The notes under the pieces: model-generated
What the model saw: the letters and a program-made list of their open reading frames with translations, nothing else
Told to the model about the DNA's origin: nothing
The model's database searches: none
Shown here: piece after piece, positions 6,190 through 19,487 of the stretch
Numbering within the stretch: position 1 is the first letter of the stretch
Layout of the letters: each line of letters opens with the position of its first letter
Position numbers and translations under genes: made by a program
Origin: Dyella acidisoli
GTDB lineage: Bacteria > Pseudomonadota > Gammaproteobacteria > Xanthomonadales > Rhodanobacteraceae
NCBI RefSeq assembly: GCF_030160295.1
Contig: NZ_BSOB01000018.1
Location: forward strand, 62,446 to 126,445
Direction: 5' to 3'
DNA: 64,000 bases

Positions 6190-6275
6190 TATCTTTTTTT
6201 CTATTAGATCGATCTGTCACAAAAAATTCAACGAACGTAGGGAGTTAGTGACGGAACTGTGAATTTTGCGTTGCG

Positions 6276-6644
6276 TCAAAAACTATCCCGGCTGCAGCTG
6301 GCGCCCGACGTACAGGTCTCGTGCACCACCACCTTGTCCAGTCCCGACAGGGTCGGTTCCAAACGCTTCCAGATCCAGCGCGCCAACATCTCACTAGTGG
6401 GATTTTCCAGGCCCTCAATGTCGTTGAGGTAATGATGATCAAGCTGCTCGTACAAGGGCGCGAACGCCGCCTTGACGTCGGCAAAGTCCATCACCCAACC
6501 CAGTTGCGGGTCGGGCTCGCCACGTAAGTGGATTTCGATGCGGAAGGAATGGCCGTGCAAGCGCGCGCATTTGTGCCCGGCAGGCACATTGGGCAAACGA
6601 TGCGCGGCTTCGATCTGGAAAACTTTGAAGATATGCATGGCCAC
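6276..6644 (-). CDS. queD: 6-carboxy-5,6,7,8-tetrahydropterin synthase (QueD/PTPS family)
   Basis: Converts dihydroneopterin triphosphate to 6-carboxytetrahydropterin in queuosine biosynthesis. The protein is 122 residues, the family length. Zinc-binding histidines are seen in EAAHRLP (His15) and RLHGHSF (His30, His32). The catalytic Cys is in [10 protein letters not shown] (Cys26), and the family signature LDHHYLND is at residues 68-75. The C-terminal VVHETCTSG block is present. It lies 33 bases after zwf but encodes an unrelated step. Start could be Met1 or Met3. Confidence 0.93.
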
Positions 6645-6677
6645 TATTCTACTCGTGCGGCCATGGTTGGCTCGTTC

Positions 6678-8117
6678 TCAAACTTCGCCGTTGCGCGCGA
6701 TCGACCGCCACACATGCCCTGCATCGAGTAGACGCTTCTGAGTTGCCGGGCCATCGGAACCGGCAGCGTAGAAGTCTGGCGCTCCGCTTTGCCACGCTTC
6801 CTGTACAGGTGTGAGCAAACGCCATGCCCATTCCACTTCATCGAAACGCAGGAAATGCGTGCGATCTCCGTCGATGGCGTCGGTCAGCAATTGTTCGTAC
6901 GCCGAAAACTCGCGATCGACCGAGTTGGCGTAAGGCGCGGTGAGCACCACGGGCCGGCCCGCCAATTCCAAACCGGGTCGCTTGGCCGTCACCAGCAGAT
7001 CCATCTGCTCTGTCGGCCGGATGCGGAAGATCATCCAGTTATTGCCCGCATGCACAGCCTTGGGCAACGCGCCAGGCACTTCGCGGAACTGCACGGCGAT
7101 TTCCGAATAGTTGCTGGCCAACCGCTTGCCGCTACGCAGATAGAACGGCACGCCACGCCAACGCCAATTGTCGATTTCCAGACGTAGTGCGGCGAACGTT
7201 TCGGTGCATGAACCGCGCACAATGCCTGGTTCATTGCGATAACCCGGCACTTTCTTCCGCCCCATTTGGCCGGCGCGATATTGACCGCGCACAGCATGCG
7301 CATCCACTGTCTCTGACGTGATTGGCACGACCGAACGCAACACTTCTACTTTGTGATTGCGCAGCACTTCGGGATCCCATTCCGCCAGCGGCGCCATTGC
7401 TGTGAGGCTGAACAACTGCATGAGATGGTTCTGCAGCATGTCGCGCAACGCGCCGGCCTTGTCGTAATACGCCGCGCGCTTTTCTACACCCAAAGTTTCA
7501 GCGTAGGTAATCTGCACCTGCGCGATGTGTTGCGCATTCCAGATCGGCTCGATGAAACGATTGGCGAAGCGGAACACCATCAGGTTCTGCGTGGTTTCCT
7601 TGCCAAGGAAATGATCGATGCGCAGGATCTGCTCTTCTTTCCAATGCGCATGCATGTCCTGACGCAACGCCTGCGCCGAAGCGAGATCAGTGCCAAACGG
7701 CTTCTCCACAACCAAACGGCGCCAGCCATTGCGTGGCGGCTTGGCAAAGCCTGCTTCGCCCAGCGCCTTGGCCGCCACACCGAACAACGGCGGCGGTAAC
7801 GCGAGATAAAACAAGGTCGCCGGGCTCAGCTTGTCCTTGAGTGCAAGCAGGTGGTCCGCATGCAATTCGCCGCCCACGTAATCAAGCTGGCGGCGGAAGC
7901 GATTCCATTGCGCCGGCGTGTAATCCGGCGCGAAGGATTGCAGCGCTTTCTGGATGTGCCGCTCGAAATACTCGCGGCTCCACGGCTCCATCGCGTAACC
8001 GACGATGCGCAGATCCCGCGTCAAACCCAGCGTATGCAGACGATAGAGCGCCGGCATCAGCAGACGCTTGGTGAGATCGCCGCTTGCGCCCAGGATAACC
8101 AGCGTGGTGGCCGCCAT
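6678..8117 (-). CDS. zwf: Glucose-6-phosphate 1-dehydrogenase
   Basis: Oxidises glucose 6-phosphate to 6-phosphogluconolactone, the entry into the oxidative pentose-phosphate and Entner-Doudoroff routes. The protein is 479 residues, the usual length. The dinucleotide fold GASGDLTKRLL is at residues 10-20, EKPFG at 138-142, and the active-site signature RIDHFLGKE at 166-174. It is the last gene of the tal-pgi-gnd-zwf operon and starts 3 bases after the gnd stop. Confidence 0.97.
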   Translation of the reverse strand: MAATTLVILGASGDLTKRLLMPALYRLHTLGLTRDLRIVGYAMEPWSREYFERHIQKALQSFAPDYTPAQWNRFRRQLDYVGGELHADHLLALKDKLSPATLFYLALPPPLFGVAAKALGEAGFAKPPRNGWRRLVVEKPFGTDLASAQALRQDMHAHWKEEQILRIDHFLGKETTQNLMVFRFANRFIEPIWNAQHIAQVQITYAETLGVEKRAAYYDKAGALRDMLQNHLMQLFSLTAMAPLAEWDPEVLRNHKVEVLRSVVPITSETVDAHAVRGQYRAGQMGRKKVPGYRNEPGIVRGSCTETFAALRLEIDNWRWRGVPFYLRSGKRLASNYSEIAVQFREVPGALPKAVHAGNNWMIFRIRPTEQMDLLVTAKRPGLELAGRPVVLTAPYANSVDREFSAYEQLLTDAIDGDRTHFLRFDEVEWAWRLLTPVQEAWQSGAPDFYAAGSDGPATQKRLLDAGHVWRSIARNGEV

Positions 8118-8120
8118 GGC

Positions 8121-9185
8121 TTAGCCCTTGTTGCCGGGTTTTACTTCCTGATGTCCGCCGAAGGAATGGCGCATCGCCGACATCACCTTGTTCGCGTACA
8201 GATCGTTGCCCTGCGAAGTGAAGCGACCGAACAACGCTGCAGTGAGCACCGGCACCGGTACGCCTTCATCGATCGCCGCTTGCGCAGTCCAGCGGCCTTC
8301 GCCGGAATCAGAAACGCGGCCGGTGTATTCCGCCAGGCCCGGATCGCGTGCCATTTCGTTAGCGGTGAGATCGAGCAGCCACGAACCGACCACGCTGCCG
8401 CGACGCCACAGTTCAACGATGTCGGCGACGGGAAAGTCGTATTGGTACAACTCAGGACGCTCCAGCGGTGCGGTCTCGGCGTCGGCCGTGCGCTTCTGCT
8501 TGCCGGCGTTCGCGTTCTTCAGCACGTTGAGGCCCTCGGCATACGCAGCCATCAAACCGTATTCGATGCCGTTGTGGACCATCTTCACGAAATGCCCTGC
8601 GCCACTTGGGCCGCAATAGAGATAACCCCTTTCCGCCGGCAGCGGGTCACCACTACGGCTCTCACTGCGCGGTGCGGCATCAACGCCTGGAGCCAGCGCA
8701 GCGAACGCGGGCTCGAGGCGCTTATAGGCAAGCTCGGGACCGCCGATCATCTGGCAATACCCGCGTTCACGCCCCCACACGCCGCCACTCACACCAACGT
8801 CCACATACATCACTTGGTGTTTGGCCAGTGCTTCGGCACGGCGCAAGTCTTCCACGTAATGCGAGTTGCCGCCGTCGATCACCGTGTCTCCCGCGTTGAG
8901 CAGCGGCACGAGCTGATCGAGCACCACATCCACCACGGCAGTGGGCAGCATCAACCATACCGCGCGCGGACCTTCAAGCTTGGCGACGAGATCCTGGATG
9001 GATTCCGCCGTGGTTGCGCCATAACCCGCTGCTTCGCGACGTGCTTCGACGTGTGTGTCGAACACCACGCAATCGATGCCCGCTTCCAGCATGCGGCGCA
9101 CCATGTTCAAGCCCATGCGCCCAAGCCCGACGAAACCAAGCTGCAATGTCTGTGCTTTCCCGGCACTCATGTTTTGTTCTCCCAA
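8121..9185 (-). CDS. gnd: 6-phosphogluconate dehydrogenase, decarboxylating (short type)
   Basis: Converts 6-phosphogluconate to ribulose 5-phosphate. The protein is 354 residues, shorter than the 470-residue E. coli enzyme and typical of the short GnD/YqeC-like class. An N-terminal Rossmann motif GFVGLGRMG is followed by [23 protein letters not shown], and the catalytic Lys/Asn block [16 protein letters not shown]. It overlaps the 3' end of the upstream fusion gene by 19 bases. MGEQNM is the first start, and Met6 is an alternative. Confidence 0.95.
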
Positions 9186-11482
9186 GCACGAAATCCACCG
9201 GCGAATGCGTTGTGGTTGTCGCCGCGCCGCACACCGTCAGGCAACTCATCAAGATGACGCACGTTGCCACCGCCAAGCACGACGTAATCCGGCTCCAATG
9301 CGGCCCGCAATTGCTCGATCACATCGAACACATGCGCATGCCATTTCTTCTTACCGAATTTCTTGAGCCCGCGTGCGCCCACGTAATCTTCGAACGTACC
9401 CTTCTTGTAAGGGAGATGCGCCAACTCCATCGGCTCGACGATCCCATCGACGATGAACGCCGAACCCAGCCCCGTACCCAGGCCAAGGAACAGCATGCGT
9501 CCACCTTCGTAGCTACCGAGCGCCTGCATCGCTGCGTCATTGATGATTTTCACCGGGCAACCGAACGCGCCAGCGAAATCGAAACCCACCCAACCCTTGC
9601 CCAGGTTGTAGGGCTCGCGCGCGATGCGCTCATGCAGCACAGGGCCGGGATAGCCGATGGTGACCGCCTCGTATTTCCAACTGCGGATGGCCGGGCGCAA
9701 TTGCTTGACCATGTCCGCCGGCGTCAGCGTGCGGCTGGACTTGATTTCCACCTCACGTTTGTTGCCGGTGATCATCGCCTTGACGTGACTGCCGCCCACG
9801 TCGATCACCAGCACTTTGCGCTGTGCCGCCAATGCCGGCGCCGCACCACCTTCTTCCGTCTTGCGGCGCGCCTTGCGATACCAAGTAATCGCCGCGTTGG
9901 TGGCGCTGTCGTGATGGAGCTGCTTGCGCGGGGATTCGATTTCATCCACCACACGTAGCGCGAGTTGCTTGCCGAGCTCAACGCCCCATTGATCGAACGG
10001 ATTGATGTCCCAGATGGCCGCCTGGGTGAACACGATGTGTTCGTAGAGCGCGATCAGCGCACCTAGAGTGTGCGGTGTAAGACGATCAGCAAGCAGCAAG
10101 CTGGAAGGACGATTGCCCTCGAACACGCGATGCGGCGCGAGGTTTTCATCGATACCTTCGGCCCGCACTTGCTCCAACGTCTTGCCCATGGCCAATGCTT
10201 CGGCCTGCGCGATCATGTTGGCCAGCAGCAGATCGTGATGACGTCCGTATGGATTAAGCGACTGCCCGAAGCCGACGAAGTCGCAAGGAATCAGCCGAGT
10301 GCCCTGATGGATAAGCTGGTAGAACGAATGCTGCCCATTCGTGCCCGGCTCGCCCCAATACACAGGGCCGGTGGCGTAATCGACATGCGCGCCTTCGACG
10401 GTGACGTGCTTGCCGTTCGACTCCATCGTGAGCTGCTGCAAGTACGCCGGGAAGCGCTTCAGATACTGCTCGTACGGAAGCACTGCTTGCGTTTCCGCAC
10501 CGAAGAAATCGGTGTACCACACGCCCAGCAAGCCCATGATCACCGGCAGGTTGCGTTCCAGCGGTGCGGTGCGGAAGTGCTCGTCCATCGCATGGAAACC
10601 GGCGAGCATGTCGGCAAACCCATCCGGTCCGATTGCGATCATGGTGGACAGGCCGATGGACGAATCCATCGAATAACGACCGCCCACCCAATCCCAGAAG
10701 CCGTACATCTGCTCAGTGGAAATGCCGAATTCTTCCACCGCCTTCGCGTTGGTGGACAGCGCAACGAAGTGCTTGGCCACGGCGCTCTTGTCGCCGCCTG
10801 CCGCCTTCATCAACCAATCGCGCGCACTGTGCGCGTTGGTCATGGTTTCCAGCGTGGTGAACGTCTTGGAGGCAACGATAAACAGCGTTTCCTCCGGCCG
10901 CAGGTCATGCACCGCCTCGGCGAAATCGGTGTAGTCCACGTTGGAGACAAAACGCAACGTGAGCTTGCGATCGCTGTAATGACGCAGTGCTTCGTACGCC
11001 ATCACCGGCCCGAGATCGGAGCCACCGATGCCGACGTTAACGATGTTGCGGATCGGTCGCCCGGTAAAACCCAGCCAGCGTCCTTCGCGAATCGACGTGG
11101 CGAACTCGCCCATGCGCTTGAGCACCGCATGGACTTCCGGCACCACGTTTACGCCGTCGACTTTGATCGTCTTGCGCGCAGGTGTACGCAACGCAACGTG
11201 CAAGGCGGCACGTTGCTCGGTGGTATTGACCTTTTCACCCGCGAACATGGCATCACGTCGCGTTTCCAATCCGCAATCGCGCGCCAGCGCAAACAGATGC
11301 TGCAACGTCTGATCGTTGATGCGATGCCGGGCGTAATCGAGGCGCCAGCCCGCGGCGTCAGCGCGGTAACGCTCCGCACGGCCGGGATCGGCCGCGAACA
11401 TGTCGCGTAGATGCTGCGTTGCCAGTTCTTGTTGATGCGCTTCCAGCGCGTGCCACGTCGCCCTCTCGCGCAAGGCGCTCAT
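9167..11482 (-). CDS. pgi: Bifunctional glucose-6-phosphate isomerase / ROK-family glucokinase-like fusion
   Basis: One uninterrupted 771-residue frame holds two enzymes. Residues 1 to about 540 are a complete phosphoglucose isomerase: GIGGSDLGP (151-159), SKTF (205-208), [18 protein letters not shown] with Glu378 and His385, Lys505 in ELGKQLA, and the normal PGI end HDSATNAAI. After a linker of about 15 residues, 556-771 is a ROK-type sugar kinase with phosphate loop DVGGSHVK (561-568), YPGP (611-614), catalytic Asp649 in [18 protein letters not shown] (667 onward) and GGGN (737-740). The ROK zinc motif (CxCGxxGCxE) is absent, as in polyphosphate/ATP glucokinases, which it resembles most. 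The product would phosphorylate glucose and isomerise the glucose 6-phosphate. Kinase substrate is inferred. It overlaps tal by 4 bases (ATGA) and gnd by 19. Confidence 0.93.
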
Positions 11483-12552
11483 GCAGCCGCCCCCATGCGC
11501 TCGCTCACGGTATCGACCAGTTCACGCCAGGATTTCACGAACGCATCGGCGCCCTCCTTCTGCAGCACCTGGGCGAGCGGCTCCACTTGGATGCCGTGCG
11601 CTTCGAACTGGGCGAGCGTGCCAGCAACGGTCGGATCATCCAGCGCCATCAAGCGCTCCGCCTTGCCGTGATCGGCGAATGCAAGCAGCGTCTTCTCCGG
11701 CATGGTGTTGACGGTGAGCGGCGCGATCAGGTTTTCGATGTAGAGCACGTCGCTGGCATTGGGATCCTTGGTGCCCGTGCTGGCCCACAGTAGGCGCTGC
11801 ACGCGTGCACCGGCGTTCTGCAAGCGCTGCACGCGTGGCGAATTGATCAGTGCGCGATATTTGGCATAGATCTGCGAGCACACCGCAAAACCGAGCTTGT
11901 TGTGCAGTTCGGCCGGCACCTTGTCTACCACTTTCACGTCCCAGCGGCTGATGAATACCGATGCGACGGATGCAACGTCCAGATCCAGCCCCGCGGCGTG
12001 ACGCCGCTCCAAACCGCGCAGCCACGCATCGGCAGCGGCCTGATACTGCTCGGGCGAGAACAACAGCGTGACGTTGATCGGAATACCGCGGAAGATCAGT
12101 TCCTCAATCGCGGGAATTCCGGCCGGTGTGCCTGGCACCTTGATGAATAGGTTATGCACGGCCGCTTGCTTATGCAGCGCCACCGCCTGTTCGATCGTGT
12201 TTTGCGTGTCGTCCGCCAACAGCGGCGATACTTCCAGCGACACCCAGCCATCCACGCCGTGCGTGTGCTGATACACGGGCTCGAAGATCGCTGCCGCGCG
12301 GCGCAGATCATCGATGGCCAAACCGAAGAACACCGCTTCCGGATCAGTATGGCCGCCCGCACGGATGGAAGCGTCATAGTCCTTGCCGGCCTTGATCGCC
12401 TGGGCAAAGATTGTCGGGTTGGAGGTGAGGCCGGTCACCGCTTTCTGCTCGCGGTAACCGAGCAAGGTGCCGTCACCCAGCATGCCGCGGGTGATGTTGT
12501 CCAACCACAGACTCTGGCCGAGCCCATGGAGCGTGCGGGTCGGTTGTTCCAT
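11479..12552 (-). CDS. tal: Transaldolase
   Basis: Transfers a dihydroxyacetone unit from sedoheptulose 7-phosphate to glyceraldehyde 3-phosphate in the non-oxidative pentose-phosphate pathway. The protein is 357 residues, the longer TAL class often linked to pgi and gnd. LTSNPTIF is at residues 42-49, and the Schiff-base lysine is probably Lys138 in [15 protein letters not shown]. First gene of the operon; its ATGA stop overlaps the start of the pgi fusion. Confidence 0.95.
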
Positions 12553-12725
12553 TGCAGTACTCCTTCATGAAATGAGGCGGATATTCGATCGGGCCAAGCG
12601 CCGAGATGTTGCAACGAGGCCGCGAGTCCGCCCGGCAGGGTAGCAAGACAGATGTCACGGCCTGATGACCGTTACGACTATACGCCTGAACGCCGCGCGC
12701 CCGGTACCCGCCGCAGAGGCGGTTG

Positions 12726-13319
12726 CTAGGTGATTTCCTGCCAGCGATAGAACTTCCGGTGCGCCATAGCGAGCATGTCGAGATCTTCCTTGGTATCACC
12801 GTAGGCGTAGATGATTGGAAAGTGCTCAGGCACGCACAGTTCGCGCACGCGCCGGGATTTTTCTGCATTGACGCACTGCGAACCAAGGAAGCGTCCGCTG
12901 AGCAGACCCTTCTCGACATGCAGTCGTGAACAGATCAGATCAAGGCCGTGCTGCTTGCACCACGGCGAAAGATAGACATCCAACGCGCCGGACACGACCA
13001 GTACCTTGTCACCCTGCGACCGATGCCAGCGAATTCGCGCCAACGCAGTCGGCCGCACGGTCGCGGGCAGGATTTCTTCGGCGAAGCGTTGGCCTGCACG
13101 TCCCAACTCATCGGCATGCAGACCACGAAAGCCGAAATGCACGACCCTTGCGCGAATCTCGCTGCCAGAGAGCAGACCAAGCCGATAGCCAGCGACCAGC
13201 GGCGCAAAAAATGGAGCGCCCAGCACCCGACGACGACGCGGAGCAGCGAACCGAATGAAAGCGCCGAAGGTTTCCCTGCTGGTGATCGTTCCATCGAAAT
13301 CGAACAGGGCAAGATTCAT
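12726..13319 (-). CDS. HAD-superfamily hydrolase, subfamily IB (phosphoserine-phosphatase-like)
   Basis: A 197-residue haloacid-dehalogenase phosphatase. Motif I is FDFDGTIT (residues 6-13), motif II is VVSGALDVYLSPW (about 107), a Lys lies in NAEKSRR (about 150), and motif III is YGDTKEDLDML (about 172). Subfamily IB members act on phosphoserine, phosphatidylglycerophosphate or other small phosphomonoesters; the substrate cannot be told from sequence. It lies 173 bases upstream of tal on the same strand, which may or may not be one transcript. Confidence 0.85.
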   Translation of the reverse strand: MNLALFDFDGTITSRETFGAFIRFAAPRRRRVLGAPFFAPLVAGYRLGLLSGSEIRARVVHFGFRGLHADELGRAGQRFAEEILPATVRPTALARIRWHRSQGDKVLVVSGALDVYLSPWCKQHGLDLICSRLHVEKGLLSGRFLGSQCVNAEKSRRVRELCVPEHFPIIYAYGDTKEDLDMLAMAHRKFYRWQEIT

Positions 13320-13386
13320 GCGCGAATTCTTCCTTGAAGAAAAGAAAGCACAAGATACTCGACTCGATACGAGAGGTGTCCTAAGT

Positions 13387-13530
13387 GAGCCCCTCTCCCT
13401 CCGGGACAGGGTGCCAAGAGGCAGGTGAGGGTTCGATCGAAGCGCGATGCTGATTTCTCGCGCAAGTCTTCATCATCACGCGCTGATCGTACCCTCACCC
13501 CAACCCCTCTCCCAAAGGGAGAGGGGCTTA
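13387..13530. repeat. Extragenic palindromic element, CTCTCCC family, copy A
   Basis: Two outer arms (13387-13432 and 13491-13530), each containing CCTCTCCC...GGGAGAGG-type palindromes and GTGAGGG, lie in opposite orientation around a spacer. The spacer matches copy B (39043-39175) when reverse-complemented. It sits 17 bases downstream of the thiolase stop codon. Structure resembles a REPIN/MITE-like non-autonomous element. Confidence 0.8.
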
Positions 13531-13546
13531 TACATGCAGCTCAACA

Positions 13547-14728
13547 TTAAAGCGCCTCCAACGCCAACGCGATGCCCTGTCCACCACCGATGCACAAAGT
13601 CACCACACCGCGACGCAATCCTTCGCGCCGCATGGCATACAGCAGTCGGGTGGTGAGAATGGCCCCCGTTGCACCGATAGGATGCCCGTGAGCCACTGCG
13701 CCGCCTTCGACGTTGACACGCTCTTCGTCCAGGCCAAGTTCGCGCGCAACGATGATGGCGATGGCCGCATACGCTTCATTGATTTCGAAACGCTCGACAT
13801 CGCCCACGCTCCAGCCTGCTCGCTGCACAGCAAGCTTCACTGCCGAGATGGGAGCGATGCCGAACATACCGGGCTCCACTGCAGTAACGGCGAAACCTGC
13901 CAAGCGAGCCAAAGGTACAAGCCCGCGCGCCTGCGCCGCTTCACGATCAGCGACGACCATCGCGGCTGCGCCGCTGTTCAAACCAGGGGCGTTGCCGGCC
14001 GTGATGGATCCGTTATCGCGAAAAGCCGGCTTCAAGCGCGCCAGCCCTTCAAATGTCGTGTCCGAGCGAGGCGCTTCGTCGCGAGCGAAAATATCAGTGC
14101 CTTTGCGTCCTGGAACGTCGACGGGCACGATTTCCGGTTCAAAACGCCCAGCATCGCGCGCAGCAACAAAGCGCTGCTGCGAACGCAATGCCCATCGATC
14201 CTGCGCCTCACGATCTACTCGCTGCTGCGCGACCAGGTCTTCTGTGTGCCAGCCGGAATGCTTCTGCGAAAACGCATCGTGCAAGCCATCCAGCAACATG
14301 CTGTCGTAGATCTGTGCATGGCCCATGCGATATCCCCAGCGTCCATTGCTCACGAAGTAAGGCGCGCGATCCATGTTCTCCATGCCGCCAGCGAGAAAAA
14401 TGTTGCCCGCTCCTGTCAGGACCTCCTGCGCAGCGGAAACGATCGCCTGCGCGCCGGAACCGCACACGCGGTTTACCGTCATGGCCGGCACCGATACATC
14501 AAGTCCTCCGTGGATGGCGGCTTGCCGCGCGGGATTCATACCACTTCCGGCCTGCACCACTTGCCCCATCACCACGCCATCGATGGCATCTGGCGTCAAA
14601 CCGGAACGCGCCATCACCTCGTGGATAACTGTTGCGCCCAACGATGTCGCCGGCACGTCGCGCAGGGCGCCATTGAAGCCGCCGATGGCCGTGCGAACGG
14701 GATGGCAAAGCACGATTTCACGTTGCAT
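13547..14728 (-). CDS. Acetyl-CoA C-acetyltransferase (thiolase)
   Basis: A 393-residue type II thiolase that condenses or cleaves acetyl-CoA/acetoacetyl-CoA, or a related 3-ketoacyl-CoA. The nucleophile Cys89 is in TVNRVCGSGAQAI. The C-terminal catalytic block GGAVAHGHPIGATG (His) and the CIGGGQG Cys are both present. Start at 14728 is chosen because AGGAGA lies 7 bases upstream; the open frame extends 29 codons further without support. It follows the efflux operon on the same strand but is functionally unrelated. With the phasin gene it hints at hydroxyalkanoate metabolism, though no PHA synthase is in view. Confidence 0.93.
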   Translation of the reverse strand: MQREIVLCHPVRTAIGGFNGALRDVPATSLGATVIHEVMARSGLTPDAIDGVVMGQVVQAGSGMNPARQAAIHGGLDVSVPAMTVNRVCGSGAQAIVSAAQEVLTGAGNIFLAGGMENMDRAPYFVSNGRWGYRMGHAQIYDSMLLDGLHDAFSQKHSGWHTEDLVAQQRVDREAQDRWALRSQQRFVAARDAGRFEPEIVPVDVPGRKGTDIFARDEAPRSDTTFEGLARLKPAFRDNGSITAGNAPGLNSGAAAMVVADREAAQARGLVPLARLAGFAVTAVEPGMFGIAPISAVKLAVQRAGWSVGDVERFEINEAYAAIAIIVARELGLDEERVNVEGGAVAHGHPIGATGAILTTRLLYAMRREGLRRGVVTLCIGGGQGIALALEAL

Positions 14729-14757
14729 GAAATGTCTCCTGTGGGAAATATCTGTCG

Positions 14758-16251
14758 TTACGGCGATGCTTGTTTTACCGCGACGGCGACACGCGCATCC
14801 ATGGCCGGCGTCCAACCGCCACCGAGTGCACGAAACGTTGCGACAGCAGCCCGCGCATCGTCGGCATGTACGCGCGCCAATTGGTCGCGCGAGCCGAGCA
14901 GCTGACGATCTTCATCCAGCACTTCGAGCAAGCTGACGGCACCGCCTTTGTATGCATCTTCAGCAGCTGCGCGTGCACGTTCGTGCGCGGCCACTTCCTG
15001 GGTCAACTCGTCGTGCTGACGTTCCAACTCGCTCAGCATGACGATGGCGTTCTCGACATCTTCCGTTGCACGCAACATCGATTGCCGATACGTCGCCAGT
15101 GCCTCAGCATTCGCGCCGTTGGCCTGCGCCACCTCGGCGTCAACACGACCGAAATCGAACAATCGCCAATGCAAGCCAAGCACGGCTTGCGGCTGGAATG
15201 CTTTGGCGGAGAACAGCTCACCGCTGCGCAGTGTCTCGAAACCGAGCAGCGCGCCTAGCGAAACCTTGGGGTAATACTCGGCCGTCGCTTCACCGATACG
15301 CGCGCTGGAGGCGGCCAACTTGCGCTCGGCCGCCATGACATCCGGACGTCGACGCAAAAGCATGGCCGGGCCGCCGTCGGCGTCGATCGAGGGCACCGTG
15401 AAGGTCTGCGCACTGTTGAGCGCTTCGTTTCGATACGTGCCAGGCGTGGCGCCCATCAAAACGTCCAGGCGGTTGAGTTGCTGCTCCAGTTCGATCTGCA
15501 ACGGCGGCAAGGTGGCGCGCGCCTGCATCACGAGCGCCTCCGCTTGCGCCTCCTCACGCGACGTGGCCAGGCCGCCGGCAAGACGCAGACGCACTAGATC
15601 CAGCAATCGGTTTTCGGTTTCCACTTGTTGCTGCGCCAAAGCGAGACGCATCTGCGCACCACGAGCGTGGAAATACGCATCAGCCGCTTCGGCCGCGAGC
15701 GAGATGCGCACACCAACGCCAGCATCCTCCGCAGCCTGCGCTTCGGCGGCGGCAGCTTCTACACCACGATGCAGGCCACCGGCCAGATCCAGCTCCCAAC
15801 TCGCGCCTGCACCGATCGTCTCTAACGTCTGATCACGGTGATAACCAGGGAGTGCGCTGGCTATTTCACCCAGCGGCCCGTCCACCGATTGATGTTGGCG
15901 TACGGCCTGTGCATCGAGATTGCCTTGTGGCAGCAGCTGAGCGCCGGCTTCGCGTGCCGCCGCACGAGCTTGATCCACGCGCGCCATGGCAGCAGCAAGA
16001 TCGAGGTTCTGCGCCGTAACGCGTTCGATGATGCGAGTAAGTTCCGGATCGTCGAATCCGGTCCACCAACTGTCCAGCGAAGGTGGGGACGAAGGCGCAA
16101 CGCGTTGCACCAGTCGATGTTGCCCCAGGTATTGCTCGTTCGTTTGCGGCGTCGGCTTGGTGTAATCCGGCCCGGCCATGCAGCCTGCAAGCCACGCCGC
16201 GATCACGACGATCAAGGTGGCGCGCGATAAGTAGCAAAAGGAAGTAGACAT
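14758..16251 (-). CDS. Outer-membrane efflux lipoprotein (NodT/OprM family)
   Basis: A 497-residue TolC-like channel. The signal peptide ends in a lipobox (AAWLAGC), so the mature protein is a lipoprotein anchored at about Cys22. Two repeats of the OEP fold cover residues about 60-260 and 270-480. It starts 8 bases after the EmrB-like gene, with a weak ribosome site, and is the last component of the tripartite pump. An upstream open extension to 16473 lies inside the MFS gene and is not credible. Confidence 0.92.
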   Translation of the reverse strand: MSTSFCYLSRATLIVVIAAWLAGCMAGPDYTKPTPQTNEQYLGQHRLVQRVAPSSPPSLDSWWTGFDDPELTRIIERVTAQNLDLAAAMARVDQARAAAREAGAQLLPQGNLDAQAVRQHQSVDGPLGEIASALPGYHRDQTLETIGAGASWELDLAGGLHRGVEAAAAEAQAAEDAGVGVRISLAAEAADAYFHARGAQMRLALAQQQVETENRLLDLVRLRLAGGLATSREEAQAEALVMQARATLPPLQIELEQQLNRLDVLMGATPGTYRNEALNSAQTFTVPSIDADGGPAMLLRRRPDVMAAERKLAASSARIGEATAEYYPKVSLGALLGFETLRSGELFSAKAFQPQAVLGLHWRLFDFGRVDAEVAQANGANAEALATYRQSMLRATEDVENAIVMLSELERQHDELTQEVAAHERARAAAEDAYKGGAVSLLEVLDEDRQLLGSRDQLARVHADDARAAVATFRALGGGWTPAMDARVAVAVKQASP

Positions 16252-16259
16252 GGGATTCT

Positions 16260-17837
16260 TCAGTGCGCATCGGCCGAAGGGGTGGGAGGAGGCGCGACCT
16301 TGCGCATCAATGGCACCATCGCCGTGGCGATCACGAAACACACGCCAATGGCGAAGAACGCATCGGCATAAGAGAGCGTCTGTGCTTCGCGAAACGCGAG
16401 CCGCCATAGCTGCTGCAGCTGTCCGTCGGCATCGCCCACGTCGGCCAAATGATTTCCGGCCTGCGCAAGCCATTGGTTCATCGTTTCATTGGTGGCGTTG
16501 AGATGCTCGGCCAGCCGATAGAAATGCAGATTCGTGCGATCGTTGAGGATGGTGGCGCAGACGGCAATGCCGATCGCACCGCCGAGATTGCGCATCAGGT
16601 TGAACAATCCGGAGGCGAGCTTGAGGCGCGCAGGCGGCAGCCCGCCGAGTGTCAGCGTGACCACTGGTGGCACCGCCAGTTGCTGTGCCATGCCGCGCAA
16701 TGCCTGCGGCAAAAGCAACTGATGTGCGCCCCAGTCATGCGTGATCGGCGTGAATTCCCACATTGATACCGCAAACAATGCCATGCCCACCATCAGGATC
16801 CAGCGCAAATCGAAACGCTGCGCGAGTACGGCATACAAGGGAATGCTCAGGATTTGAAAGATGCCCGTGGAGAACACCGCCTGGCCGATCTGCAACGCGC
16901 TATAGCCTTCCACCCGCCCAAGGAACAGCGGCGTGAGGTAGATGGTCGAGAACAGGCCGATGCCGGTTACGAAGGAAAACAAACTGCCCAGCGCGAAGTT
17001 ACGATCGCCCAGCGCACGCAGATCCACCAGTGGATGCGCGTAGATCAGGCTGCGGATGATGAATGCGATACCGCAAATGCCCGAAAGCCATGCCGTCGTC
17101 GTGATCGTGCTGTCGGAAAACCAGTTCCAACGCGGACCTTCTTCCAGCGTGTATTCCAGGCAGCCAAGGAATACCGCGAGCAGCACCATGCCCGGATAGT
17201 CGGCACGACGCAGCAGCGAAAGGTCCGGCGCATCGATATTCACCAGCATCGGCACGACGAACGTGACGAACAAGCCGGGCACGAGATTGATGAAGAACAG
17301 CCAGTGCCAGGACCAGTGATCGGTGATCCAGCCGCCCAGAGTGGGGCCAAACGTTGGAGCGAGTGACGCCAGCGCGCCGATGGTCGCAGCCGCCACCACG
17401 CGTTGTTTGCCAGAGAAAAATACGAACGCCGTGGTGAACACCATCGGGATCATCGAGCCACCGAGAAAACCCTGCAGTGCGCGGAACACGATCATGCTCT
17501 GGATATCCCAGGCGCCACCGCACAGCAGACTCGTCAACGTGAATCCCGCTGCCGAGGCGGCAAACAGCCAACGCGTCGAAAACACGCGCGACAACCACCC
17601 CGACAACGGAATCACCACGATCTCGGCGATGAGATAGCTGGTCTGCACCCATGCCGTTTCATCCACGCCCGCGGACAGGCCGCCACCGATGTCGCGCAGC
17701 GACGCCGATACGATCTGAATGTCGAGCAAGGCGATGAACATGCCCACGCACATACTGGCAAAGGCAATCACCTTCTGAGCATTGGCAAGGCTGGCTGGAT
17801 CGATCGGCCCGGCCATCGCGGCGGCGCGGACGTTCAT
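16260..17837 (-). CDS. DHA2-family drug:H+ antiporter (EmrB/QacA type)
   Basis: A 525-residue MFS protein with about 14 membrane helices, typical of the DHA2 family. Features seen are WVQTSYLIAEIVVIPLSGWL in helix 2/loop and PTFGPTLGGWITDHWSWHW in helix 5 (motif C region). It should export hydrophobic drugs through the adjacent EmrA-like adaptor and outer-membrane channel. It overlaps the adaptor gene by 4 bases (ATGA). Confidence 0.95.
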   Translation of the reverse strand: MNVRAAAMAGPIDPASLANAQKVIAFASMCVGMFIALLDIQIVSASLRDIGGGLSAGVDETAWVQTSYLIAEIVVIPLSGWLSRVFSTRWLFAASAAGFTLTSLLCGGAWDIQSMIVFRALQGFLGGSMIPMVFTTAFVFFSGKQRVVAAATIGALASLAPTFGPTLGGWITDHWSWHWLFFINLVPGLFVTFVVPMLVNIDAPDLSLLRRADYPGMVLLAVFLGCLEYTLEEGPRWNWFSDSTITTTAWLSGICGIAFIIRSLIYAHPLVDLRALGDRNFALGSLFSFVTGIGLFSTIYLTPLFLGRVEGYSALQIGQAVFSTGIFQILSIPLYAVLAQRFDLRWILMVGMALFAVSMWEFTPITHDWGAHQLLLPQALRGMAQQLAVPPVVTLTLGGLPPARLKLASGLFNLMRNLGGAIGIAVCATILNDRTNLHFYRLAEHLNATNETMNQWLAQAGNHLADVGDADGQLQQLWRLAFREAQTLSYADAFFAIGVCFVIATAMVPLMRKVAPPPTPSADAH

Positions 17838-18946
17838 AGCGTGCTAGTGCGTGACGATGCGCGCGTATCGACTTCAGCGGTTACGGAAAGACCTGGGCGC
17901 AGCAGGCCGAGTGCGTCGTCCTGCTTGTTCAGCGCGACGCGTACGGGCACCCGCTGCACGATCTTGGTGAAGTTGCCTGTAGCATTTTCAGGCGGCAGTA
18001 CGCTGAACTCGGCGCCGGTAGCGGGAGCTAGGCTGATCACGGAACCATGGAAGGTACGGCCTGGCAACACGTCGGCATGAATCGCCACCGATTGCCCCGG
18101 CTGCATGCGCGCCAGCTGGTCTTCCTTGAAGTTCGCGTCCACCCACAGGCCATGCGCGGGCACCACGGATAGCAGTTGCGTACCGGCAGCGGCAAAAGCG
18201 CCTACACGAGCACGCCGATTGCCGATCACGCCGTCTACAGGTGCGCGTAATTCGGTGTAGCTCACGTTCAATGCGGCGAGGTCACGTTCCGCTTTGGCTT
18301 GCTCCAGCGCTGCGCGCGCCTGCTGTTTTTGCGACGCAATCACGTCGAGCTGACGCTGTGCAGCCGTTAACGCGGCCTGGGCTTTATCCGCGTTCGCGCG
18401 CGCCGTCTTGTCGACCGCATCCGCGCGTTGTGCACTTTCCACGGATACCGCCGAACGCCCGGCCAACTCCCGGTAGCGCACTTCGTCATCACGGGCACGC
18501 GTTGCTTCGGCATTGGCGGCCGCGATGCCTGCCTTGGCTTCGTTGATGACAGCCTCTTGTAGATGCTCCGTTGCATCGAGATTCGCCAACAAAGCCTGCT
18601 GCGCAGCCACGGCGCTTTCGGCTTTTGCCAGTGTGGCGCGGTAATCGCGATCGTCGATCTTTACCAGTACATCGCCAGCACGCACCCGCTGGTTGTCGGT
18701 GACGTTTAACACGGTGATGTAGCCCGATACCTTGGGGCCGATCACTGTGATGTCGCCGCCTACGTAGGCATCATCGGTGTCCTGCAGGAATCGCCCGGTG
18801 ACCCACCAGTGGATGCAGTAGACGATACCGAGCAGCAGCGCGACACCGGCAGCGATGCGTAACGCATGTTTGCGCTTGCTCCTTGGTGGTGCGACGTCGG
18901 CATCGTCGGGAATATCGAGTCGCTTAACGGCCGTAGCGGTGTTCAT
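17834..18946 (-). CDS. HlyD/EmrA-family membrane fusion protein
   Basis: A 370-residue periplasmic adaptor. A cytoplasmic N-terminus is followed by one membrane helix (residues about 30-48), a lipoyl/barrel half (DDAYVGGDITVIGPKVSGYI), a long alpha-hairpin (about 95-200, Ala/Arg-rich coiled coil), the second lipoyl half, and a beta-barrel. ATG at 18944-18946 is 4 bases downstream of the hxlR stop, so it is in the same operon. The longer open frame to 19060 overlaps hxlR and is rejected. Confidence 0.94.
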   Translation of the reverse strand: MNTATAVKRLDIPDDADVAPPRSKRKHALRIAAGVALLLGIVYCIHWWVTGRFLQDTDDAYVGGDITVIGPKVSGYITVLNVTDNQRVRAGDVLVKIDDRDYRATLAKAESAVAAQQALLANLDATEHLQEAVINEAKAGIAAANAEATRARDDEVRYRELAGRSAVSVESAQRADAVDKTARANADKAQAALTAAQRQLDVIASQKQQARAALEQAKAERDLAALNVSYTELRAPVDGVIGNRRARVGAFAAAGTQLLSVVPAHGLWVDANFKEDQLARMQPGQSVAIHADVLPGRTFHGSVISLAPATGAEFSVLPPENATGNFTKIVQRVPVRVALNKQDDALGLLRPGLSVTAEVDTRASSRTSTL

Positions 18947-18950
18947 GGCG

Positions 18951-19487
18951 CTATTCCGATCGCGGCGATGTGGAAGACGAAGCCGAGCGTTCCTGCGCGC
19001 GTTTGCGCAGATTGGCGTCGGCGCGTGCCCGCATGCGCGCATCGGCGGCAGGGCCGGCATGCATGGCGTGATGCTTGCGATCGATCAGGTCGCCCGTCTT
19101 CGCGTCGACCATTACCGGCTCGACCGCGTCGCCAGTGCGTTCATCGATCAATTGCATGGCCGGCCCTTCCGGCGCGAAGTGGCGGTTGCCCCAGGCCATC
19201 AGTGCCAGCAGCACAGGGCGAAAATCGCGTCCGCGCGGTGTCAGCACGTATTCGTAGCGAGGCGGTTTCTCGCTGTAGCGACGGCGCTCCAGCAGGCCGG
19301 CATCGGTCAGTGCGCGCAGCCGGCGCGTCAGCATGTTCGGCGCAATGCCGAGGCTGTCCTGAAATTCATCGAAACGCGTTGCGCCAAGAAAGGCGTCGCG
19401 CAGGATCAGGATGCTCCACCACTCGCCGACGCGCTCGAGACTTCGCGCAATCGGGCAGTGCATATCGCCAAAACTGGTTCGTTGCAT
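18951..19487 (-). CDS. HxlR-family winged-helix transcriptional regulator
   Basis: A 178-residue protein with the HxlR domain at residues about 8-110: CPIARSLERVGEWWSILILRD, then RFDEFQDSLGIAPNMLTRRL and the wing PPRYEYVLTPRG. The last 60 residues are a charged extension not needed for the fold. It is the first gene of the efflux operon and probably represses it; two copies of AGTAACTA in its own promoter are the likely operator. One Cys (Cys11) lies at the position that senses oxidants or electrophiles in some family members. Confidence 0.92.
   Translation of the reverse strand: MQRTSFGDMHCPIARSLERVGEWWSILILRDAFLGATRFDEFQDSLGIAPNMLTRRLRALTDAGLLERRRYSEKPPRYEYVLTPRGRDFRPVLLALMAWGNRHFAPEGPAMQLIDERTGDAVEPVMVDAKTGDLIDRKHHAMHAGPAADARMRARADANLRKRAQERSASSSTSPRSE

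Follow-up and report, generated by a model that had tools for sequence, protein, structure and literature searches.

The locus described here raises a simple question: what does a kinase of the ROK family do when it is joined, in a single polypeptide, to phosphoglucose isomerase (PGI), in the middle of a row of pentose-phosphate genes? The fusion is found in a window of Dyella acidisoli DNA (the whole stretch that was analysed, 64,000 nucleotides). Judging from sequence comparisons, we consider it quite probable that it is a bifunctional enzyme, in which a dedicated glucokinase is fused to PGI and feeds the pentose-phosphate branch point.

The fusion gene and its place in the gene row

The fusion gene (9167..11482, minus strand), defined from its open reading frame and from profile matches, codes for 771 amino acids; a reading-frame check shows that it runs from ATG to TGA with no internal stop. 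Profile matches place the PGI half at about residues 1–545 (9848..11482, minus strand). The whole Pfam profile of PGI, PF00342 (1–486 of 486), matches residues 49–532 with 710 bits, and the NCBIfam model NF001211 matches residues 4–539 with 826.7 bits, for a cut-off of 492. Residues E354, H385 and K505, which by homology we take to be the catalytic Glu, His and Lys of PGI, are invariant in the 18 fusion rows that were aligned. The fusion is the only match to PF00342 in the host genome.

A linker of variable length and letters (about residues 541–554; 9821..9862, minus strand) leads to the ROK kinase half (residues 556–771, 216 amino acids; 9170..9817, minus strand), which was delimited by a profile match, a structural model and an alignment. 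The Pfam ROK profile PF00480 matches residues 559–681 with 30.9 bits (gathering cut-off 22.9). Despite this partial match the kinase half is complete, since positions 2–220 of a 222-residue query align in phmmer with positions 2–221 of the 226-residue protein 3LM2 (272 bits), that is, over practically its whole length. The intact frame, the PGI score and the alignment with 3LM2 bear out the first-pass annotation of the locus, which had read one frame of 771 codons as a complete PGI followed by a ROK kinase. A structural model of the whole fusion, built from 13 aligned rows, is too poor (pLDDT 49.3, pTM 0.38) to place the two halves.

The start of the fusion gene overlaps by 4 bases (ATGA) with tal, which encodes transaldolase (11479..12552, minus strand). 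At the other end, the stop codon of the fusion is overlapped by 4 bases by the ATG at 9170 of gnd, coding for a 6-phosphogluconate dehydrogenase of the NAD/NADP type gnd_rel (8121..9170, minus strand); this start is an inferred choice, the frame being readable from a TTG at 9185. The gene zwf, for glucose-6-phosphate dehydrogenase (6678..8117, minus strand), starts 3 bases past the end of gnd (8121). The row tal / pgi-ROK / gnd / zwf is tightly packed, and the fusion does lie within a pentose-phosphate gene row, as had been proposed from the letters. A promoter scan of positions 6200–13600 gave 0 sites, against 2.3 in shuffled sequences, and a terminator scan of the same region gave 8, against 6.6 by chance. 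The next gene groups downstream (13547–19060 of the window, minus strand) consist of a thiolase gene, then genes for an outer-membrane efflux protein, an MFS transporter and a HlyD-type protein, the last three making up an efflux-pump set.

The kinase half and its relatives

Relatives of the kinase were collected by scanning the genome contigs of 84,980 species; at least 552 were confirmed, and the best 80 were kept. These 80 are spread over Pseudomonadota, Acidobacteriota, Verrucomicrobiota, Planctomycetota and other phyla, and many of them come from metagenome bins, which may be mislabelled. Three loci in which the kinase gene lies beside zwf or gnd (L060, L080 and L081) come from bins labelled as Thermoplasmata archaea, which reflects either horizontal transfer or mis-binning.

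The D, GG and K of the first phosphate loop (DxGG..xxK), the Asn–Asp pair and the Glu of the ExxH motif are invariant in the 88 aligned kinases, and the His of ExxH is present in 87 of them. A pattern search found the ROK zinc motif, CxCGxxGCxE, in none of the 88 rows. This agrees with the first-pass annotation, which had taken the absence of the motif as a sign of a glucokinase using polyphosphate or ATP; however, the absence alone does not reveal the donor. Some branches of the ROK family lack this motif.

Modelled with AlphaFold2 (pLDDT 93.3), the kinase half matches many ROK kinases with Z scores of at least 20 and hence has a ROK kinase fold. Its closest structure is 3LM2 (Z 33.7, 216 residues aligned, 55–56% identity), a "putative kinase" of Agrobacterium tumefaciens C58 which belongs to the same family and has the same length as the kinase half, but which is a stand-alone protein of 226 residues, whose structure comes without an assigned function; a search by its code found no paper on this structure. 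The second is 1WOQ, a polyphosphate/ATP glucomannokinase (Z 23.7), then comes the fructokinase 3LM9, 1.5 lower (Z 22.2), and N-acetylmannosamine kinases are also among the neighbours. A profile search of structures gives 346.8 bits for 3LM2, 55.1 bits for 1WOQ and then 35.7 bits for N-acetylmannosamine kinase.

The nearest characterised relative of the kinase half, 1WOQ, uses both polyphosphate and ATP. The two have in common the ROK fold, a full-length profile match and an aligned Lys in the first loop, but they are only 22% identical and the kinase half is about 35 residues shorter. Glucokinases that are strictly polyphosphate-using, such as All1371, are described in a passage of PMC4252912. 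The first-loop Lys, which aligns with position 25 of 1WOQ, is no proof of polyphosphate use, since the N-acetylmannosamine kinase 5NCK has it too; the active-site letters alone appear to separate neither glucose from fructose nor ATP from polyphosphate.

The model that matches the most rows is that of polyphosphate–glucose phosphotransferase, NF045942 (88 of 88, best E value 1.2e-21), and the ATP-dependent glucokinase model matches 85 of them. What had been annotated as a complete ROK kinase is indeed complete, but it is a short form (216 amino acids), whose score with NF045942, 68.8 bits, is far from the curated cut-off of 250; five members of the family score 55–69 bits with this model. The score with TIGR00744, the ROK glucokinase model of the GlcA type, is 26.2 bits for a cut-off of 260.35. 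On these scores, we consider that the kinase is a branch of its own, a short ROK family which, among the models tested, appears nearest to polyphosphate glucokinases.

Gene neighbourhoods and the probable substrate of the kinase

The neighbourhoods of the best 80 of the at least 552 relatives were examined in fetched stretches of up to 5 kb on each side. The kinase gene is separate in 65 of these loci; the fused layouts are PGI-ROK (12 loci), ROK-PGI (2) and ROK-GND (1). At least one of tal, pgi, gnd and zwf is present in the fetched stretch of 60 of the 80 relatives, and near 45 of the 65 separate kinase genes (tal 21, pgi 19, gnd 34, zwf 36). When pgi is found near a stand-alone kinase gene, the latter comes directly before it in 18 loci out of 19. 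The fetched stretches of 20 of the 65 stand-alone loci, 10 of which have full 5-kb flanks, contain none of these four genes. Other recurrent neighbours code for a 6-phosphogluconolactonase/glucosamine-isomerase family protein, transketolase and MGH1-like glycoside hydrolases; no Pfam match was found for three neighbour representatives, and there is no polyphosphate kinase among the 20 recurrent neighbour clusters (one representative of each, single-locus neighbours being left out).

The commonest other neighbour, in 20 of the 80 loci, is a GH15 gene of the glucan 1,4-alpha-glucosidase type, which occurs near the kinase in 14 of the 65 separate loci, in 5 of the 12 PGI-ROK loci and in the ROK-GND locus. 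The GH15 protein carries a glucodextranase N domain; of four members scored with TIGR01535 (glucan 1,4-alpha-glucosidase), two exceed its cut-off and two are below it. Its N-termini, as judged by eye and with several starts mis-set, have no signal peptide, which would place the enzyme in the cytosol.

The kinase is also present in 60 plasmid records, five loci of which were opened. The order GH15-gnd-zwf-ROK was found in four of them, from Pantoea stewartii, P. agglomerans, Agrobacterium vitis and Martelella, while the plasmid locus of Deinococcus gobiensis has zwf-ROK-GH15; in all five, the kinase is labelled just "ROK family protein". The kinases of the GH15-gnd-zwf-ROK sets belong to the same family as the Dyella kinase half (about 55–58% identity) and the sets share gnd and zwf with the Dyella row, but the kinase is not fused, GH15 heads the row, and the 6 kb displayed on each flank contain neither pgi nor tal. 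In the plasmid sets, glucan would be cleaved to glucose, and glucose 6-phosphate and 6-phosphogluconate are what Zwf and Gnd require; the kinase fits the conversion of glucose to glucose 6-phosphate, a step that would otherwise be unfilled. The lactonase step is likewise not encoded, but it is not one that a ROK kinase would catalyse; the lactone also opens spontaneously. Taken on its own, the plasmid set (L167, L168, L169 and L170) is a compact candidate mobile module leading from glucan to pentose phosphates.

The context of the kinase suggests a glucokinase through which glucose enters the pentose-phosphate pathway. The position directly before pgi and the proximity of zwf, gnd and GH15 are strong arguments in favor of the glucokinase reading of the first-pass annotation, although the cut-offs of the glucokinase families are not reached. 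In the mechanism that we propose, the C-terminal ROK domain would make glucose 6-phosphate from free glucose, and the PGI at the N-terminus would interconvert it with fructose 6-phosphate; both products would then be drawn into the pentose-phosphate pathway by Zwf, Gnd and Tal, whose genes stand in the same row. In many phyla, the members of the kinase family would act as the separate glucokinase of a tal/pgi/gnd/zwf row, and the GH15 glucoamylase-type enzyme that is often encoded alongside would supply the glucose. The proposal provides a testable function for a widespread family whose solved structure is that of a "putative kinase".

The host genome contains five PF02685 glucokinase matches, two ROK matches besides the fusion, and no match to GH15. 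Considering the five PF02685 matches and the absence of GH15, the need for a further glucokinase in this host is not evident, and the fusion would not be the sole route of glucose phosphorylation, given the five PF02685 and two other ROK matches.

It may also be, although we put this forward as a tentative and rather doubtful extension, that this small ROK family, spread by horizontal transfer, provides the hidden glucokinase of a route that leads in the cytosol from glucan to pentose phosphates, possibly using polyphosphate, and that its fusions to GND and, in either order, to PGI serve to convert the beta-glucose released by GH15 to beta-glucose 6-phosphate and to pass this on to PGI and Zwf without loss. 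GH15 enzymes invert, Zwf prefers the beta anomer, and PGI can anomerise.

The kinase half could instead be a fructokinase (or a mannokinase); PGI would then convert its product, fructose 6-phosphate, and so supply Zwf and Gnd with glucose 6-phosphate. Fructose 6-phosphate is a substrate of PGI and of transaldolase too, and 3LM9, a ROK fructokinase, is structurally close, as described above. We nevertheless find this improbable: the recurrent GH15 neighbour calls for glucose, as do the GH15-gnd-zwf-ROK plasmid sets, which have no pgi in the 6 kb displayed on each flank, and the fructokinase model PRK09557 matches only 10 of the 88 rows, against all of them for the polyphosphate–glucose model and 85 for the ATP-dependent glucokinase model. 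It is less probable still that the kinase half supplies Gnd by acting on gluconate, as a gluconate kinase. In one relative (L074) the fusion partner is GND, and gnd is a neighbour in 34 of the 65 stand-alone loci, but zwf is equally frequent (36 of 65), and this hypothesis leaves unexplained the two kinds of fusion to PGI and the adjacency to pgi; known gluconate kinases have other folds. We give equally little credit to the idea that the ROK half has ceased to be a kinase and become a glucose-sensing regulatory domain of PGI. ROK domains also act in sugar-sensing repressors, 5F7Q and others being among the structural neighbours of the model, but there is no DNA-binding domain here, and the letters of the loop, the Asn–Asp pair and the Glu are invariant in every one of the 88 rows.

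Distribution and origin of the fusion

Returning to the glucokinase–PGI fusion that we favor, its occurrence in related genomes bears on whether it is a genuine gene. The first-pass annotation had suggested looking for the same two-domain architecture in other genomes and confirming that the linker is read through, and it regarded separate genes as the rule in close relatives as counting against its reading. Full-length matches (1–770 or 1–771), with no stop, were found in 14 of the 15 other genomes of the genus, in open frames of at least 783 amino acids, and also in G037, G027 and G039, one genome each from three further genera of the family. In the fifteenth genome of the genus (G008), the fusion is in two overlapping pieces, each reaching the end of a contig. 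The length and letters of the linker differ between genomes, yet both flanks remain in frame, so that the fusion is not due to a sequencing error in a single genome. Among named records, those from Dyella are nearest, the kinase of D. choica being 89% identical.

That two separate genes have been joined by chance read-through or by an assembly error is hardly credible when the same open frame is seen in all these genomes and is kept while the linker varies, even though pgi and the kinase gene are separate and adjacent outside the fused clade and the second codon of the kinase is GTG in 18 of 26 fusion loci. The 60 bases 5' of the kinase contain no in-frame ATG, GTG or TTG in 21 of these 26 loci; a second, internal start that would give an extra, short kinase product seems unlikely.

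In a sample of the family, the kinase was matched with more than 300 bits in 31 of 233 genomes, and 29 of these 31 strong matches are in open frames of at least 735 amino acids; the frame of G008 (344 amino acids) is cut by contig ends and that of G450 has 402 amino acids. Five further genomes have weak kinase matches (135–150 bits). Genera in which the fusion is found also contain genomes that lack it (G048 and G036, versus G027 and G501), and its distribution in the family is patchy. In a sample of the class, 4 of 273 genomes besides our own have a match above 300 bits, one of which (G119) is fused. In a sample of the phylum, 11 of 398 genomes, our own included, have the kinase at an E value of 1e-50 or better, and the other 10 all carry it unfused, in frames of 226–264 amino acids. 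Separate genes are thus not seen in close relatives as far as the genus is concerned, but they are the rule outside it.

In a tree of the 88 kinases, which is quick, midpoint-rooted and leaves 37 of its 84 inner branches open, the PGI-ROK fusions form one clade (17 rows, SH-aLRT 86), the ROK-PGI fusions another (2 rows, 99), and ROK-GND is a single row. The layouts require 3 changes on this tree, and none of 200 label shuffles gave a number as low. The fusions differ in order and partner and, on that ground alone, they result from separate joining events. A clean reverse fusion, ROK-PGI, of 776 amino acids is seen in a bin labelled Rokuibacteriota (L110:270-2600), and it is the only clean one, the other ROK-PGI frame (L121) having a garbled junction and broken neighbours. 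In L074 (4989-6719), the kinase is fused before 6-phosphogluconate dehydrogenase in a frame of 576 amino acids, after which come zwf and a gene for a GH15 protein.

The fusion of PGI with another enzyme of the same pathway has a precedent in the bifunctional transaldolase/PGI, NF007080, and the tal half of this model scores the host tal well. In Dyella, on the contrary, tal overlaps the fusion as a gene of its own and the partner of PGI is the kinase; the fusion scores 66.7 bits with this model, against 712. Neither a PGI–kinase fusion nor a function of the kinase family was reported in the open-access literature that we searched. The parts of the fusion are of known kinds and their combination appears new within this literature, in keeping with the first-pass annotation, which was aware of tal-pgi fusions and of no PGI–kinase fusion. 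What is gained by the fusion may be co-expression at a constant 1:1 ratio, or channelling. The enzymes of the first two steps of glucose breakdown would be fused, with PGI leading in one clade and the kinase in another, forming a natural two-step cascade that is also a candidate component for sugar chemistry in cell-free systems.

Last, we note that two loci in other genomes of the same bacterial family (L042:8173-9884 and L043:2204-3915) encode a more distant ROK kinase, with 35–36% identity; its gene has zwf and pgi nearby and, in the former, overlaps gnd by 4 bases.
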